Part shown: positions 33,409-40,774 of the stretch, one piece after another
Layout: each line of letters opens with the position of its first letter
Position numbering within the stretch: the first letter of the stretch is position 1
Program-made: the position numbers and the translations under genes
Assembly (NCBI GenBank): GCA_027624955.1
Contig: JAQBTG010000029.1
Coordinates: 1 to 50,981, forward strand
Source: Pseudomonadota bacterium
GTDB taxonomy: Bacteria; Pseudomonadota; Alphaproteobacteria; UBA828
DNA length: 50,981 bases
Direction of reading: 5' to 3'
Notes under the pieces: generated by a model
The model's database searches: none
Told to the model about the DNA's origin: nothing
What the model saw: only the letters and a program-made list of their open reading frames with translations

Positions 33409-34845
33409 ATGCGAAAATCAGCGACGACGCCCGCTTCCACAATGCCCTTGCTCGAGCGGCTGCCTTCGGTCGAACGGCTGGTGGCGGATACCGCGATGAT
33501 CTGCGTTCGTGAATCCTATGGCCGGCCTTTTGTCACCGCTGCCGCACGCGAAACCTTAGCGAATGCGCGGGCGCAGCTTCTGGCAGGAAACAGTCCGAGT
33601 GTGGAGGTCAAGGCTCTGGCCGGCCTGACAATCACACGAATCGAAGAGATGACCGCGGCCTCGCTGACACCTGTGTTTAATCTTACCGGTACGGTGCTGC
33701 ACACAAATTTGGGGCGCGCGCCCTTGCCGCCAGAAGCCGTGGCCGCGATGGCGGCGGTTGCGACCCAGGCCAGCAATCTCGAATATGACGTTGCCACGGG
33801 GAAGCGCGGCGAACGGGACGATCATGTGGCTGACTGGCTCTGCCGCCTAACCGGAGCGGAAGCGGCTCTGGTGGTAAACAACAACGCCGCGGCCGTGCTC
33901 CTGCTTCTGAACAGTTTGGCGAACCGTAAGAGGGTGGCCGTATCGCGCGGCGAATTGATTGAGATCGGCGGTGCATTCCGGCTGCCTGATATCATGGCGC
34001 GCGCCGGCTGCAAGCTGATTGAAGTTGGTACAACCAATCGCACACATGGGCGCGACTATGTCGCCGCTCTGGACGATGGCGCGGCATTAATTTTGAAGGT
34101 TCATCCGAGCAATTACGAAGTGCGCGGCTTCACTGCGGAAGTTCAAACGGCGGAGCTGGCCCAACTGGCGCATGCCGCTGGAAAACCGCTTGCCGTCGAT
34201 CTCGGCTCGGGTTCGCTTGTCGACCTGAGCCGCTATGGACTGCCGCCTGAACCGACGGTGGCCGAGACCCTGAACGCCGGAGCCGATCTGGTTACTTTCT
34301 CAGGCGACAAGCTGTTGGGTGGGCCGCAGGCCGGGATCATCGTCGGCAAAACGGAACTTATCGCGCGTCTGCGGCGCAATCCAATGAAGCGCGCGCTACG
34401 CCTCGACAAGATCACGCTGGCGGCGCTCGGCGCGGTGCTCCGGCTTTATGCCAATCCAGAGAAATTACCATCGCAGCTGCCGACGCTTCGCCTGTTGACG
34501 CGTGACAAAGACGACATCCGCGCGCTGGCAGAGCGGCTGCTGCCGGTCCTAGCCCGGCGCTTGAAGGGCGTGGCGGACGTTGAGGTGGCGGATTGTATGA
34601 GCCAAATCGGTTCAGGCGCGCTACCCGTCGAAACCCTGCCGAGTGCTGCTCTCGCAATCAATCCGATTGCCGCCAAACGTAAGCGCGGCGGCACGTTGGA
34701 GCGCATAGCCTCAGCTTTTCGGGCGCTGCCCGTGCCAGTAATTGGGCGGGTGCAAAGTGGCGTCTTCGTTCTTGACTTGCGTTGTCTAGAAAACGAAGAC
34801 GGCTTTCGCGCCCAACTTGAGCTGCTGGACATTTCCGACGCGTGA
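33409..34845 (+). CDS. selA: SelA, L-seryl-tRNA(Sec) selenium transferase
   Basis: This 478-residue PLP enzyme converts seryl-tRNA(Sec) to selenocysteinyl-tRNA(Sec) using selenophosphate. The PLP Lys is in FSGDKLLGGPQAG (K301), and TVLHTNLGRAPLP, NLEYD and EIGGAFRLPDIM are SelA signatures. The N-terminal domain that binds tRNA-Sec is present (LERLPSVERLVA). It opens the Sec island, with selB overlapping or closely following its stop. Confidence 0.97.
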   Translation: MRKSATTPASTMPLLERLPSVERLVADTAMICVRESYGRPFVTAAARETLANARAQLLAGNSPSVEVKALAGLTITRIEEMTAASLTPVFNLTGTVLHTNLGRAPLPPEAVAAMAAVATQASNLEYDVATGKRGERDDHVADWLCRLTGAEAALVVNNNAAAVLLLLNSLANRKRVAVSRGELIEIGGAFRLPDIMARAGCKLIEVGTTNRTHGRDYVAALDDGAALILKVHPSNYEVRGFTAEVQTAELAQLAHAAGKPLAVDLGSGSLVDLSRYGLPPEPTVAETLNAGADLVTFSGDKLLGGPQAGIIVGKTELIARLRRNPMKRALRLDKITLAALGAVLRLYANPEKLPSQLPTLRLLTRDKDDIRALAERLLPVLARRLKGVADVEVADCMSQIGSGALPVETLPSAALAINPIAAKRKRGGTLERIASAFRALPVPVIGRVQSGVFVLDLRCLENEDGFRAQLELLDISDA

Positions 34846-34858
34846 TGGCCGTCACCGC

Positions 34859-36790
34859 GTGATTATTGCCACCGCAGGCCATGTCGATCACGGCAAGACC
34901 AAGCTGGTCGAAGCGCTGAGCGGCGTCAATACCGACCGCTTACCGGAGGAAAAACTGCGCGGCCTCACCATCGACCTCGGTTTCGCCTATGTACCGGTCG
35001 CCGGTGGCGGGATATTGGGCTTTGTCGACGTACCCGGGCACGAAAAATTTATCCGCAACATGGTGGCTGGTGTCAGCGCCATCGACTACGCGCTGCTGGT
35101 GATCGCCGCAGATGACGCACCGATGCCGCAAACCGTTGAGCATTTGGCGATATTGGACCTGCTCGGCGTCACCGCAGGGGCGGTGGCAATTACCAAGACG
35201 GACGCAGTCGCGGATGGCCGGGTCGATGAAGTAAAGCAGGCGGTGCGCAAGATCATGCGTGGAAGCGGGCTTGAACAGGCGGAGATATTTCCCCTCTCTG
35301 CTCTCTCGGGCGAAGGCGTGCCAGCGCTCAAGTCACATCTCGAAAATGCGGCGCGGGCATTTTCCGCGGCGCCGCCCCAGGGCCGCTTTCGCCTCGCCAT
35401 CGATCGTATGTTTAACCTGACCGGCGCCGGCCTGGTGGTCACGGGTAGCGTCTATTCCGGGCGCGTGGCAGTGGGCGAAAAATTGCTGCTCTCTCCGTCC
35501 GGTGCCGAAGTGCGGGTGCGGGCGCTGCACGTTCATGATCGCCCTGCGGAGGAAGCGCGCCAGGGCGAGCGGGCGGCACTAAATCTGGCCGGGCCGGGTG
35601 CGCGCCGCAGTGATATTAGGCGCGGCGATTGGTTGTTGCATCCGGCAGCTCATGCGCCGACCCGGCGCATCGACGCCGAACTTCACGTCCTCCCCAGCGA
35701 AGCCAAACCGTTTAAGCATGAAACGCCGGCGCATTTGCATCTGGGCGCCCTGGAGACACCGTGCCGCGTCGCCGTCCTGAATGGCCGCGAGATCGCGCCG
35801 GGAGAGAGCGGCCTGGTACAAATCGTCACTGAGCGCTTGATCACGGCGCATACGCGGGATCGGTTGATCCTGCGCGACCAATCGGCGCGCCGCACGCTGG
35901 CGGGCGGGCGGATTGTCGACCCGAATGGGCCTGAGCGTGGCCGCGCCCGCGCGCCCCGCTTGGCGCAACTCGTTGCGATGGCTGAAAACAATCCGGCGAC
36001 GGCGCTGGCGGCGTTGCTACCGCTTTCGCCTGGCGGTCTCGACCTCAACCGTTTCGCCGTGGCGCGCAATCTTGATGCCGACGAAAGCACGACCTTGTTC
36101 GCGGCGGCAGAAATGGTCACGGCGGGCGGCACCACCGCACTGGTGGGCATGTCGCTAGAACATTGGCAGAGCCTAAACCGCCACATCATCACGGAATTGA
36201 AAAGCTGGCACCAACAGTCGGCTGAAACGCTCGGCCTCAACGAATTCGAATTGCGCCGTCTTTTCACTGAACGGCCGCTGATGCAGCTTTTCAATGCCGC
36301 CATCATCCAATTGATCGAAGCTGGCGAGGTGAAGCGTGCCGGCACCATCCTGCATCTGCCTGACCACAAGGCCAAACTGGCGGCGGGTGAACAAACTGTC
36401 TGGCTGCAAATTTTACCGCTCTTAGAATCTGGCGGATTGCGCCCGCCGGTGGTGTGGCAAATAGCCTCTGAGCTTGATTTGCCAGCGGATGAGACCGAAC
36501 GCGTTCTGAAACGCGCCGCCGCGCTGGGGTTCAGTATTCAGGTGGCAAAGAATCGATTCTTGTTGCCCGCTGCAGTGCGGCGGCTCGCCGAATTCGCCGA
36601 GGAATTGGCCGGCGAAAGTGAAGAAGGCCTCTTTCTCGCCGCCCAATATCGCGACCGATCTGGCATCGGGCGAAACTTAACGATTGAGCTCTTGGAATAT
36701 TTTGACCGCGCTGGTTTTACCCGGCGCACCGGCGCCGCTCGGCGCACTCTCTGCCCGGCGTCCGCTTTGTTTAGTGCGGGGCCCACTTGA
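34859..36790 (+). CDS. selB: SelB, selenocysteine-specific elongation factor
   Basis: This 643-residue translation GTPase delivers Sec-tRNA to in-frame UGA codons. It starts at GTG 34859 (VIIATAGHVDHGKT), 13 nt after the selA stop; a longer TTG start would overlap selA and is less likely. GTPase motifs are GHVDHGKT, DVPGHE and TKTD. EF-Tu-like domains 2 and 3 follow, then a C-terminal half of winged-helix repeats (about 370-643) that in this family binds the SECIS hairpin. It lies directly upstream of the tRNA-Sec gene. Confidence 0.96.
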   Translation: MIIATAGHVDHGKTKLVEALSGVNTDRLPEEKLRGLTIDLGFAYVPVAGGGILGFVDVPGHEKFIRNMVAGVSAIDYALLVIAADDAPMPQTVEHLAILDLLGVTAGAVAITKTDAVADGRVDEVKQAVRKIMRGSGLEQAEIFPLSALSGEGVPALKSHLENAARAFSAAPPQGRFRLAIDRMFNLTGAGLVVTGSVYSGRVAVGEKLLLSPSGAEVRVRALHVHDRPAEEARQGERAALNLAGPGARRSDIRRGDWLLHPAAHAPTRRIDAELHVLPSEAKPFKHETPAHLHLGALETPCRVAVLNGREIAPGESGLVQIVTERLITAHTRDRLILRDQSARRTLAGGRIVDPNGPERGRARAPRLAQLVAMAENNPATALAALLPLSPGGLDLNRFAVARNLDADESTTLFAAAEMVTAGGTTALVGMSLEHWQSLNRHIITELKSWHQQSAETLGLNEFELRRLFTERPLMQLFNAAIIQLIEAGEVKRAGTILHLPDHKAKLAAGEQTVWLQILPLLESGGLRPPVVWQIASELDLPADETERVLKRAAALGFSIQVAKNRFLLPAAVRRLAEFAEELAGESEEGLFLAAQYRDRSGIGRNLTIELLEYFDRAGFTRRTGAARRTLCPASALFSAGPT

Positions 36791-36833: not shown

Positions 36834-36929
36834 GGAGGAGGATCGCACCCCGGTGGGGCGCTCGGACTTCAAATCCGGTGAGGCGCGTGCGACGTGCCTG
36901 GTGGGTTCGACTCCCACCCTCTTCCGCCA
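36834..36929 (+). tRNA. selC: tRNA-Sec (anticodon TCA)
   Basis: The gene folds as a selenocysteine tRNA. The acceptor stem has 8 bp (GGAGGAGG with CCTCTTCC, one G-T wobble), then a D arm with extended stem, an anticodon stem TCGGA/TCCGG with loop CTTCAAA and anticodon TCA at 36869-36871, a 7-bp long variable arm (AGGCGCG with CGTGCCT), and a T stem GTGGG/CCCAC. The 8+5 acceptor-T pattern is typical of bacterial tRNA-Sec. CCA is encoded. It reads the UGA codons of the two selenoproteins downstream. Confidence 0.98.
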
Positions 36930-37028: not shown

Positions 37029-37805
37029 ATGAGCGAAATTCCAACCGTCGATGCCGTGGCCTTGCGCGAAGAGGTCAAGGATAAGTACCGGGTGGTGGCT
37101 ATCGAGCCCGGAGGAACCTATCATTTCCATACCGGACGGCCGCTCGCCAAGCGGCTCGGTTATGACAATGCGGTGGTCGATCCCCTGCCTGATGCGGCAG
37201 TCGAATCGTTCGCCGGTGTCGGCAACCCCTTCGAACTGAGGACCCTGGAGACAGGCGAGAACGTTGTCGATGTCGGCTCGGGTGCCGGTTTCGATTCCTT
37301 CATTGCCGCTTCCCAGGTGGGACCCAGCGGTCAGGTGGTCGGCATCGATATGACCGAAGAGATGCTGGCCAAATCACGCGCCACGGCAAAGGCGATGGGT
37401 GCCGCCAATGTCGAGTTCCGCGAAGGGTTGGCCGAGAGCATGCCGGTCGAAGATGGCTGGGCAGATGTTGTCATCTCCAATGGCGTGATCAACCTCTGCG
37501 CAGATAAAAAGCGAATTTTCGAAGAGATCATGCGGGTGTTGCGCCCTGGCGGCACACTACAATTCGCCGATATCGCCAATGGCAAGTCCGTGCCTGCGTC
37601 GGCCATGGCCAACATCGACCTGTGGACATCTTGAATAGCTGGGGGCCTGCCGTGCGCAGGCTGGCGCAAGATGATGAAAGATATCGGCTTCGCAGATGTA
37701 GAAATCGGCCTGCCGGTCGATACTTTTTGCGATGCCCGCGGCGAGAACAACGCGCGCGCTTTCGAGGTCTTCGGCTACGCGTTTCGCGCGGTGAAGCCGG
37801 CTTAG
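37029..37805 (+). CDS. Selenoprotein: ArsM-like SAM methyltransferase with in-frame UGA
   Basis: The 258-residue protein is interrupted by TGA at 37632-37634 (residue 202), and the frame continues intact to TAG at 37803. The motif I VDVGSGAGFDSFIA and the rest look like arsenite methyltransferases; NIDLWTS-U-IAGGLPCAGW follows, and the readthrough part (EIGLPVDTF..., ARAFEVFGYAF) continues the same domain. The Sec corresponds, by position, to the third conserved As(III)-binding Cys of ArsM-type enzymes (inference). Start ATG 37029 has AAGGAA upstream. A hairpin just after the TGA is a candidate SECIS. It lies between tRNA-Sec and selD. Acting on arsenic is possible but unproven. Confidence 0.93.
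37645..37661 (+). promoter_or_regulatory. Candidate bacterial SECIS hairpin, methyltransferase
   Basis: GCCTGC (37645-37650) pairs fully with GCAGGC (37656-37661) around the loop CGTGC. The loop lies 17-21 nt after the TGA, a normal bacterial SECIS distance, and contains GTG as in the second candidate. SelB would bind it to deliver Sec-tRNA. Confidence 0.75.
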
Positions 37806-37832: not shown

Positions 37833-38897
37833 ATGGCGGATGAAAACAGTTTTCGCCTAACAACACTTTCCCATGGCGGTGGCTGCGGCTGCAAAATTGC
37901 GCCGGCGGTGCTCAGCGAAATTCTCAAGGGACTGCCGCGACCTTTCGCCGACCCGGCTCTGCTGGTAGGCAATGATTCGAGTGACGATGCGGCCGTCTAT
38001 CGTATTAACGATGAACAGGCGGTGGTGGCGACCACCGATTTTTTCATGCCCATCGTCGACGATCCCTTCGACTTTGGCCGCATCGCGGCAACCAACGCGC
38101 TCTCCGATTTATACGCTACAGGGGCAAGACCGATTTTGGCACTCGCTATCGTCGGCATGCCTATCGACAAACTGCCGGTAGCGGTGATCCGGAAAATCCT
38201 TGCGGGCGGGGCTGCCGCCTGCGAAGAGGCCGGCGTCGCCATCGCCGGCGGCCATTCAATCGATTCACCGGAGCCGATCTACGGTTTGGCCGCCATCGGC
38301 CTGGTCGCGCCCGAGCGCATCAAGCGCAACGATACGGCAGAAGCAGGCGACGTGCTGATCCTCGGCAAGCCGCTCGGAATTGGCATCTTGAGCGGTGCGC
38401 TCCAGCGCGGCGAACTCGAGCAATCGGGCTACCGCGAAATGCTAGAGACCACGACCCAGCTTAACAAGGTAGGCATGGCTTTGGCCGAGCAATCAGCCGT
38501 GCATGCGATGACCGATGTCACCGGCTTTGGCCTTTTGGGGCATCTTCTGGAAATGTGCCGGGGCGCAAGCCTTGGCGCAGAGGTGGCGCTAGAAGCGTTG
38601 CCGATTCTGCCCACCGCACGCGCCCTAGCCATGGCCGGTGCGAGTACCGGCGCAGCAACCCGCAACTGGCAAAGCTATGGCGATGAGGTGCGGCTGCCGG
38701 CAGATATCGCCGCGTGGCAGCAAAGCATTCTGTGCGATCCGCAAACCAGCGGCGGGCTGTTGATTGCCTGTGCACCTCATGCGGCGGATTCCGTGCTCGA
38801 CATGTTTCATGAGAGCGGATTTGCGGCCGCCACGAGGGTCGGTGGTATGTTGGCCGGCAAGGCGGAAGTCAGGGTATTAGCCGGCGACGAGACATAA
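37833..38897 (+). CDS. selD: SelD, selenide water dikinase (selenophosphate synthetase)
   Basis: The protein has 354 residues. SHGGGCGCKIAP near the N-terminus carries the catalytic Cys (a Cys form, not Sec) and Lys; GNDSSDDAAVYRINDEQAVVATTDFF and the TDVTGFGLLGHLLEM and DPQTSGGLLIAC motifs are SelD hallmarks. It makes selenophosphate from selenide and ATP, the Se donor used by SelA. AGGAG lies 7 nt before the ATG. It follows the methyltransferase gene by 27 nt. Confidence 0.97.
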   Translation: MADENSFRLTTLSHGGGCGCKIAPAVLSEILKGLPRPFADPALLVGNDSSDDAAVYRINDEQAVVATTDFFMPIVDDPFDFGRIAATNALSDLYATGARPILALAIVGMPIDKLPVAVIRKILAGGAAACEEAGVAIAGGHSIDSPEPIYGLAAIGLVAPERIKRNDTAEAGDVLILGKPLGIGILSGALQRGELEQSGYREMLETTTQLNKVGMALAEQSAVHAMTDVTGFGLLGHLLEMCRGASLGAEVALEALPILPTARALAMAGASTGAATRNWQSYGDEVRLPADIAAWQQSILCDPQTSGGLLIACAPHAADSVLDMFHESGFAAATRVGGMLAGKAEVRVLAGDET

Positions 38898-38913: not shown

Positions 38914-40140
38914 ATGACCCGCTTGGAAGACGTTGACGCGTTCATGCGCGCGGAATTAATCGAACTGGAATGCCCAAAATTTGACCGTGACCCGTGGGTG
39001 GCGGCGCCAGAGCTGTCAAAATGCCGGGTGGCAGTGATCTCCACGGCGGGGCTGCAACGGCGCGGCGACCGGCCCTTTGAGTTTGGAGCGGCCGATTACC
39101 GGGTTATCCTCGGCGAGACGGCGGCGGAAGATTTGGTCATGAGCCATGTTTCAACAAATTTCGACCGCGCTGGATATCAGCAAGATATGAATGTCTGCTT
39201 CCCGATTGACCGGCTCAATGAGTTGGCCGATGAAGGCGTAATCGCCTCGGTGGCGAAATACCACTACGCGTTCTTGGGTTCGACGGCACCGGAGGAGATG
39301 GAGGCGCCGACGCGGCAACTGGCTGGACTGTTGAAAGCGGACGACGTCAACGCGGTTGTGCTTGTCCCTGTCTGACCCTTTTGCACGCGCGCCGTGGGCG
39401 GGTTGGCACATTATTTGGAACAAGACGGGCTGGCGACAACGCAGATCAGTTTGATACGCCTGCATAGTGAGAAGACCCGCCCGCCGCGCGCGTTATGGGT
39501 GCCATTCGAGCTTGGACGTCCTTTCGGCCCGCCTAATGACGCGCCGTTTCAGCGCCGCGTACTGTTGGCTGCGCTCGAATTACTGCAAGCTGATGAAGGC
39601 CCAGTGCTAGTCGATTATCCGGAAGAGGCGCCGAAAACGACGGAAGCGGAGATGGAAGGCTGGGTTTGCCCTATTAACCTCTCTCCTGCTCCGCCAAGCC
39701 AAGACGGAGACACACCTCGCCACGAATTCGAAAGCGAAATGAAGAATCTATGGCCGTGGTACGAACTCGCGATGGAAAGCCGCGGCCGTTCCAACATCGG
39801 CGCCAGTGGTTTAACTCTTGAAAAGGCGCGCGATGTGGTGCTGTCCTTCGTTCATGGTGAACACGCAGAGATTCCGGTGCCCGGCGTCTCCACATCTGAA
39901 GGGTTGCGCCTGGCGGTCGACGACCTCAAGGCGTTCTATATCGACGCGGCCACCGCCCAGCCGGGCAACGCTTCAGGCCGCAATGTCCAAGACTGGTTTT
40001 GGCGCGAGACAGTGTTCGCGAACCAGCTTCAAGGATTGCGGAAAAGATTGATGGCAAGCTCGGATGAGGACCTAGCGCTGATCGGGGAATGGTTTCTCGT
40101 TCCATCCTCACATTGGCTGGAAGAAAGTTACTACAAATAG
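38914..40140 (+). CDS. Selenoprotein: GrdB-family (glycine/sarcosine/betaine reductase component B-like) with in-frame UGA
   Basis: The 408-residue protein is read through TGA at 39373-39375 (U154) to TAG at 40138-40140. The first half (VAVISTAGLQRRGDRPFEFG, VMSHVSTNFDRAGYQQDMNV, PIDRLNELADEG) is the GrdB/PrdB fold, and DVNAVVLVPV-U-PFC gives the U-x-x-C redox pair (U154/C157) seen in that family. Downstream the frame continues with VGGLAHYLEQDGL and a 240-residue C-terminal part. AAGGAG precedes the ATG. The chemistry in aerobic proteobacteria is unknown; the family is best known for reductive C-N cleavage in clostridia. Confidence 0.92.
39390..39400 (+). promoter_or_regulatory. Candidate bacterial SECIS hairpin, GrdB-like selenoprotein
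   Basis: CGCC (39390-39393) pairs with GGCG (39397-39400) around a GTG loop, with a mismatch and further partial pairing outward. The loop lies 19-21 nt after the TGA. The stem is shorter than in the methyltransferase gene, so it is less certain, but distance and loop agree. Confidence 0.5.
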
Positions 40141-40201: not shown

Positions 40202-40774
40202 ATGCAGTGGATCAAAGGCTATAAAATGGAGCAACCGGCTATTTGCGAGCGGTTGATCAAGGGCTTCGAGATTGCCAAGGAATTAGGCTTTGCCCATGCC
40301 GGAGTGAGCGCCAAGGGAGTCGACAAGGCGTGGAAAGATTCGGAAGACGTCAGCCTTAACTGCCTGCCGATCGAAATCTACACGGAGACCGTGCGCGCCT
40401 ACCGCGAACATGTGATGGCAAGCATAAGGCTTTATATGAAAGAGTTTCCAGTGCTCGCCGCAAGCGGCGCCAAAGTCGGCTTTCTTGAGCCGCCGCAAAT
40501 CCAGCATTACGAACCGGGCGGGGCTTTTTTCGGTGAACATTATGAATCGAGCGGGCTCGATATCGCCCATCGGGTGCTCGCTTTCATGACTAACCTCAAT
40601 ACGGTCAAACAAGGCGGCGGCACGGAATTCGTTTATCAGGATTACATCAGTCCAGCCAAAAAGGGCGTCACCAACATCTGGCCTGCCGGCTTCACCCACA
40701 CCCATCGCGGCATTCCCGCTCCGAAAGAGCATAAATACATCATCACCGGCTGGCTTAGTTATATGGGAATATGA
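40202..40774 (+). CDS. 2-Oxoglutarate/Fe(II)-dependent dioxygenase-like protein
   Basis: This 190-residue protein has the double-stranded beta-helix core of prolyl-4-hydroxylase-type enzymes: HYEPGGAFFGEHYES (H113-x-E115), RVLAFMTNLNTVKQGGGTEFVYQ, and PAGFTHTHRGIPAPKEHKYIITGWLSY with the distal His and the Lys that holds 2-oxoglutarate (K178). The proximal pair is H-x-E, not the usual H-x-D; a few family members use Glu. It starts at ATG with GAGAAG upstream and follows the GrdB-like selenoprotein gene. Hydroxylating a peptide or free amino acid would fit the family; no target is visible. Confidence 0.85.
   Translation: MQWIKGYKMEQPAICERLIKGFEIAKELGFAHAGVSAKGVDKAWKDSEDVSLNCLPIEIYTETVRAYREHVMASIRLYMKEFPVLAASGAKVGFLEPPQIQHYEPGGAFFGEHYESSGLDIAHRVLAFMTNLNTVKQGGGTEFVYQDYISPAKKGVTNIWPAGFTHTHRGIPAPKEHKYIITGWLSYMGI

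Follow-up and report, generated by a model that had tools for sequence, protein, structure and literature searches.

A selenocysteine-containing methyltransferase of ArsM type encoded in an alphaproteobacterial sel cluster, probably distinct from the arsenite methylase of the cell

All three arsenic-binding cysteines of CmArsM (Cys72, Cys174 and Cys224) are needed for activity on arsenite, while Cys174 and Cys224 are needed for monomethylarsenite (MMA), and a C174A variant is inactive on both substrates (PMC3877260). Selenocysteine (Sec) forms of such enzymes have been described. A Sec-containing arsenite S-adenosylmethyltransferase was reported from the marine GOS data in 2008, with eight selenoproteins and 245 Cys homologues (PMC2398784, Table 2), and a 2026 review includes the arsenite methyltransferase (NF008823, UxxG) among the experimentally verified selenoproteins (PMC13188914, Table 1); a literature search for ArsM together with selenoprotein found nothing under those names. 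Furthermore, NCBIfam holds three fusion or double selenoprotein families with Sec in a UxxG motif, namely ArsM_AhpD_UU (NF041537), ArsM_DUF2284_UU (NF041536) and MTase_UXPK_star (NF047649). With the UxxG-bearing Sec form of arsenite methyltransferase already recognised as a selenoprotein family, the novelty of the gene described here is smaller than first appears. The present analysis adds the outline of a branch that is Sec-only, single-domain and devoid of the arsenite site, with a conserved SECIS-like hairpin and a Cys157 signature that sets it apart from the Cys relatives sampled.

The window analysed is the 50,981-nt contig JAQBTG010000029.1 (GCA_027624955.1) of a marine Pseudomonadota bacterium (Alphaproteobacteria, UBA828), and the features given below are all on its forward strand. 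NCBIfam, ARAGORN and Rfam analyses showed the gene order selA-selB-selC-methyltransferase-selD, with a full Sec insertion set flanking the methyltransferase gene. These include selenocysteine synthase (selA, 33409-34845; TIGR00474), the Sec-specific elongation factor (selB, 34817-36790; TIGR00475), whose start codon is uncertain as the profile matches from residue 15 onward, and the Cys form of selenophosphate synthetase (selD, 37833-38897; TIGR00476), all above the curated cut-offs, as well as a tRNA-Sec (selC, 36834-36929) with anticodon UCA, detected by ARAGORN and matched by Rfam RF01852 at 73.5 bits. The ORF of the ArsM-like SAM-dependent methyltransferase (37029-37805; 258 aa, Sec at residue 202) starts 99 nt 3' of the tRNA-Sec and ends 27 nt 5' of selD, which bears out its placement between these two genes in a preliminary description of this DNA. 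A PrdB/GrdB-like ORF (38914-40140; 408 aa) forms the second selenoprotein gene of the cluster. Its in-frame UGA (39373-39375) falls in the motif UPFC (UxxC) and is likewise TGA in three relatives (loci L009-L011); the ORF has a long C-terminal extension and its PrdB match is weak (E 5e-26, below the cut-off). The cluster is followed on its 3' side by a 2OG-Fe(II) oxygenase-like gene (40202-40774), which is kept adjacent in L009-L011; L010 has a related second ORF as well. No match to the SelW and UGSC families was found in the genome, the UGSC control being uninformative.

The methyltransferase ORF begins with the ATG at 37029, contains a single in-frame TGA (37632-37634, codon 202) and continues over 56 sense codons to the TAG at 37803-37805, as had been described from the sequence. 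A homologue scan of 84,980 species genomes yielded 80 loci. Codon 202 is TGA in 30/30 clade members covering the position (45-86 % identity), among them all close relatives (65-86 %), a SAR324 protein (51 %) and a Nitrospinota protein (45 %), and the hosts of the Sec clade comprise Alphaproteobacteria, Actinomycetota, a Pseudomonadales MAG, SAR324 and Nitrospinota. Alignment of the readthrough protein with its ArsM relatives, the check that had been proposed, showed Cys (TGC or TGT) at this position in 56/56 Cys-form ArsM-type relatives of the tree; homologues ending at residue 201 were not encountered, nor was a loss of Cys/Sec conservation. The sole exception among the other ArsM-type proteins is a Thermodesulfovibrionales protein (L083) with TGA at the codon-202 position. 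In a maximum-likelihood tree of 85 rows, of which the bootstrap is not fully settled, the 28 Sec rows form one clade (support 97/87) and L083 stands apart within the canonical ArsM group, so that the Sec/Cys state at position 202 changed at least twice. The L083 gene (L083:3884-4663) encodes a canonical ArsM (331 bits, over the cut-off) that keeps the Cys72 and Cys174 positions. Its Cys224 position reads TGA, followed by a hairpin, and represents an independent Sec/Cys change. SelB was found over the cut-off in 21/26 host genomes. The other five are the Cys-form Cyclobacterium, L011, in which SelB is broken across contigs, and the possibly incomplete genomes of L012, L019 and L038. In one alphaproteobacterial locus (L033:4568-5780) the Sec methyltransferase gene is interrupted near codons 188-189 by a probable insertion of approximately 1.2 kb that carries another ORF.

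The protein is under equal selection before and after the UGA (pN/pS of 0.27 upstream and 0.28 downstream). Synonymous change falls from approximately 0.67 to 0.37 in codons 203-213, where it is slower than anywhere else in the gene; the ten six-codon windows with the least synonymous change all start within codons 201-211. This dip falls exactly over a SECIS-like hairpin (37644-37662), which starts 9 nt after the UGA and consists of a 7-bp stem (37644-37650/37656-37662) and the loop CGUGC (37651-37655), with the first loop G 18 nt after the UGA. The perfect 6-bp hairpin noticed earlier (GCCUGC-CGUGC-GCAGGC, 37645-37661) is thus present and is extended by one G-U pair. Across 27 sequences the stem is 95.8 % paired, with three covarying pairs changed on both sides, including a G-C to U-A change at one pair in six sequences, and the SAR324 stem is kept with other bases. 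None of 500 shuffles was as well paired, a control that can be inflated by the relatedness of the sequences; slid partners, for which relatedness is retained, were 17-45 % paired, still far below the observed value. Since the folding energy of the hairpin in this one sequence is ordinary (z = -0.69), the case for it rests on the comparative evidence. An Rfam search of the cluster gave no SECIS family match, only the tRNA-Sec and chance matches. In the Sec form of Pseudonocardia asaccharolytica (L032, 69 % identity) the predicted hairpin (L032:3079-3129) has the loop CCCGU, with no G at the first two places. Cys209, a possible additional conserved thiol, was rejected because its codon falls within the hairpin and the residue is missing from L021, L032 and L035.

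The clade-wide TGA, the equal pN/pS, the synonymous dip over the hairpin and the covariation together indicate that the recoding is more than chance. A true stop at the TGA, a sequencing error or gene decay, with the downstream frame as leftover homology, would agree with a plain ORF list, which ends the gene at the TGA, and with the ordinary hairpin energy. Such readings are extremely improbable given the shared TGA at this codon in independent genomes, the purifying selection downstream, which is the same as upstream, and the covarying hairpin. Still more remote is the reading of TGA as tryptophan (code 4), for which nothing speaks beyond the open frame: relatives show Cys and never Trp at codon 202, and the gene lies within a complete set of Sec insertion genes. 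The proposal that the methyltransferase is a selenoprotein has therefore held, with the presence of Cys in the relatives as further backing. Decoding of UGA codon 202 as Sec by the neighbouring SelA/SelB/tRNA-Sec/SelD system is solidly supported by these comparisons, from which we infer incorporation in the cell.

On the basis of Pfam and NCBIfam, the protein is a class I methyltransferase of ArsM type, with scores that stay short of the cut-offs for the specific ArsM models. Its AF2 model (pLDDT 95) best matches CmArsM and CrArsM in the PDB (Z 25.0-26.4, 2.4-2.6 Å over 214-222 residues), and the profile matches, the CmArsM alignment and the model concur in an ArsM fold with a SAM-binding core, so that the earlier designation as ArsM-like is upheld by both sequence and predicted fold. 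The best NCBIfam profile match is the ArsM/AhpD fusion selenoprotein. The N-terminal methyltransferase parts of NF041537, NF041536 and NF047649 match with E values of 1e-60 to 1e-68, but the scores (229, 211 and 205 against cut-offs of 510, 575 and 460, respectively) are far lower than these models demand, and the present protein has a single domain with one Sec, lacking the fusion partner and second Sec of these families. With the arsenite methyltransferase selenoprotein (NF008823/PRK11873) it shares the ArsM type with Sec, a motif (UIAG) that fits UxxG and the reports from marine metagenomes; it differs in that the Sec clade falls below the cut-off (218.3 bits for this protein, cut-off 263) and is without two of the three arsenic cysteines. 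Similarly, the predicted fold is that of CmArsM (4fr0, 6cx6) and CrArsM (5evj) and the alignment runs through the catalytic Cys position, but the protein comprises 258 rather than approximately 380 residues, with Sec202 in place of Cys224, Val64 (codon 37218-37220) in place of Cys72 and Gly152 (codon 37482-37484) in place of Cys174. This alignment places Sec202 where ArsM has its catalytic, metalloid-binding Cys224, in agreement with the suggestion that Sec replaces the third arsenic-binding Cys.

The further suggestion that this is an arsenic enzyme in which one ligand has been swapped, a true ArsM arsenite methyltransferase merely with Sec for the third Cys, did not fare as well. It draws on the Sec at the Cys224 position, on the ArsM proteins being the closest solved structures and on the Sec-ArsM proteins already known. 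However, the equivalents of Cys72 and Cys174 are absent throughout the Sec clade, the C174A variant of CmArsM is inactive on both inorganic arsenite and MMA (PMC3877260), and the arsenite methyltransferase cut-off is not reached. Furthermore, the same genome encodes a separate, canonical three-Cys ArsM (G000:C1, approximately 151.8 kb) adjoining an ArsR-family gene. From a partial sequence this ArsM scores 293 bits against the NF008823 cut-off of 263, and its presence makes it unlikely that the Sec enzyme serves as arsenite methylase. Considering the lost ligands, the inactive C174A variant and this paralogue, we regard the arsenite reading as improbable; the Sec enzyme is probably not the arsenite methylase of the cell, and the loss of the two residues points to a substrate other than arsenite.

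A second thiol appears to accompany the Sec. Cys157 (codon 37497-37499) lies five residues after the position of the lost Cys174 and is present in 25/25 Sec-clade rows and 0/12 others of the alignment, as well as in none of the Cys-form rows of the wider codon comparison. The nearest Cys-form relatives, from haloarchaea, Chelatococcus and Cyclobacterium (L102-L105, L037), share the HFxxGR N-terminal motif and likewise lack Cys72 and Cys174, but have Cys at 202 and Val or Ser at 157. Thus the loss of the arsenite site reaches beyond the Sec clade, while Cys157 goes with Sec, and Sec202 and Cys157 probably constitute a working pair.

The best explanation, to which we assign a probability of roughly 0.75, is an ArsM-fold Sec202 methyltransferase with hairpin-guided decoding that acts on a soft substrate and is probably not the arsenite methylase. 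UGA codon 202 would be read as Sec through SelA, SelB, tRNA-Sec and SelD, guided by the conserved hairpin just downstream. The soft substrate would then be held or attacked by Sec202, which Cys157 probably assists as partner or second ligand, and would be methylated from SAM; candidates are a two-coordinate organo-metalloid or metal (e.g. a monomethylated arsenical) and species with a thiol or selenol group. As arsenite methylase, the canonical three-Cys ArsM encoded elsewhere in the genome would be a better candidate. More tentatively, and with somewhat less than even confidence, the protein may represent a Sec-obligate lineage within the ArsM superfamily, one in which the three-thiol arsenite site has given way to a new two-ligand Sec202/Cys157 centre for a different soft substrate.

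Redox- or selenium-handling methylation linked to thiol peroxidases, for example of selenide, methylselenol or thiols, would be consistent with several neighbourhood features, but is rather doubtful. On haloarchaeal plasmids (positions approximately 3.3-7 kb of L102, L103 and L105) OsmC adjoins the Cys-form relative, with MarR nearby and a carboxymuconolactone decarboxylase (CMD) gene in one. Together with the ArsM/AhpD fusion selenoprotein, these neighbours suggest a redox-linked role for the Sec methyltransferase, although the hints are thin, and within its own genus the gene directly adjoins selD. The sel linkage is, however, mainly confined to the genus or family of the present organism (L009-L011, L090-L094), with SelA-SelB 5' of the gene in L039 and sel genes 3' of it in L030, and the neighbours elsewhere in the Sec clade vary from locus to locus. 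Operon logic thus gives no substrate. Methylation of sulfide in the manner of MddH was also rejected, as no link to the ArsM-like Sec methyltransferase family was found in the MddM/MddH paper.

For the soft-substrate methyltransferase favoured here, plain ORF calling shortens the enzyme by 56 residues and drops the catalytic residue, and the label 'arsenite methyltransferase' is likely wrong for this Sec branch. Should the Sec202/Cys157 centre indeed serve another substrate, this selenoenzyme would methylate by a chemistry so far undescribed. Found widely in marine Rhodospirillales-type MAGs, the branch is Sec-only in the sample and has a matched set of residue changes, and may thus offer a clean way to test what a methyltransferase gains from Sec.
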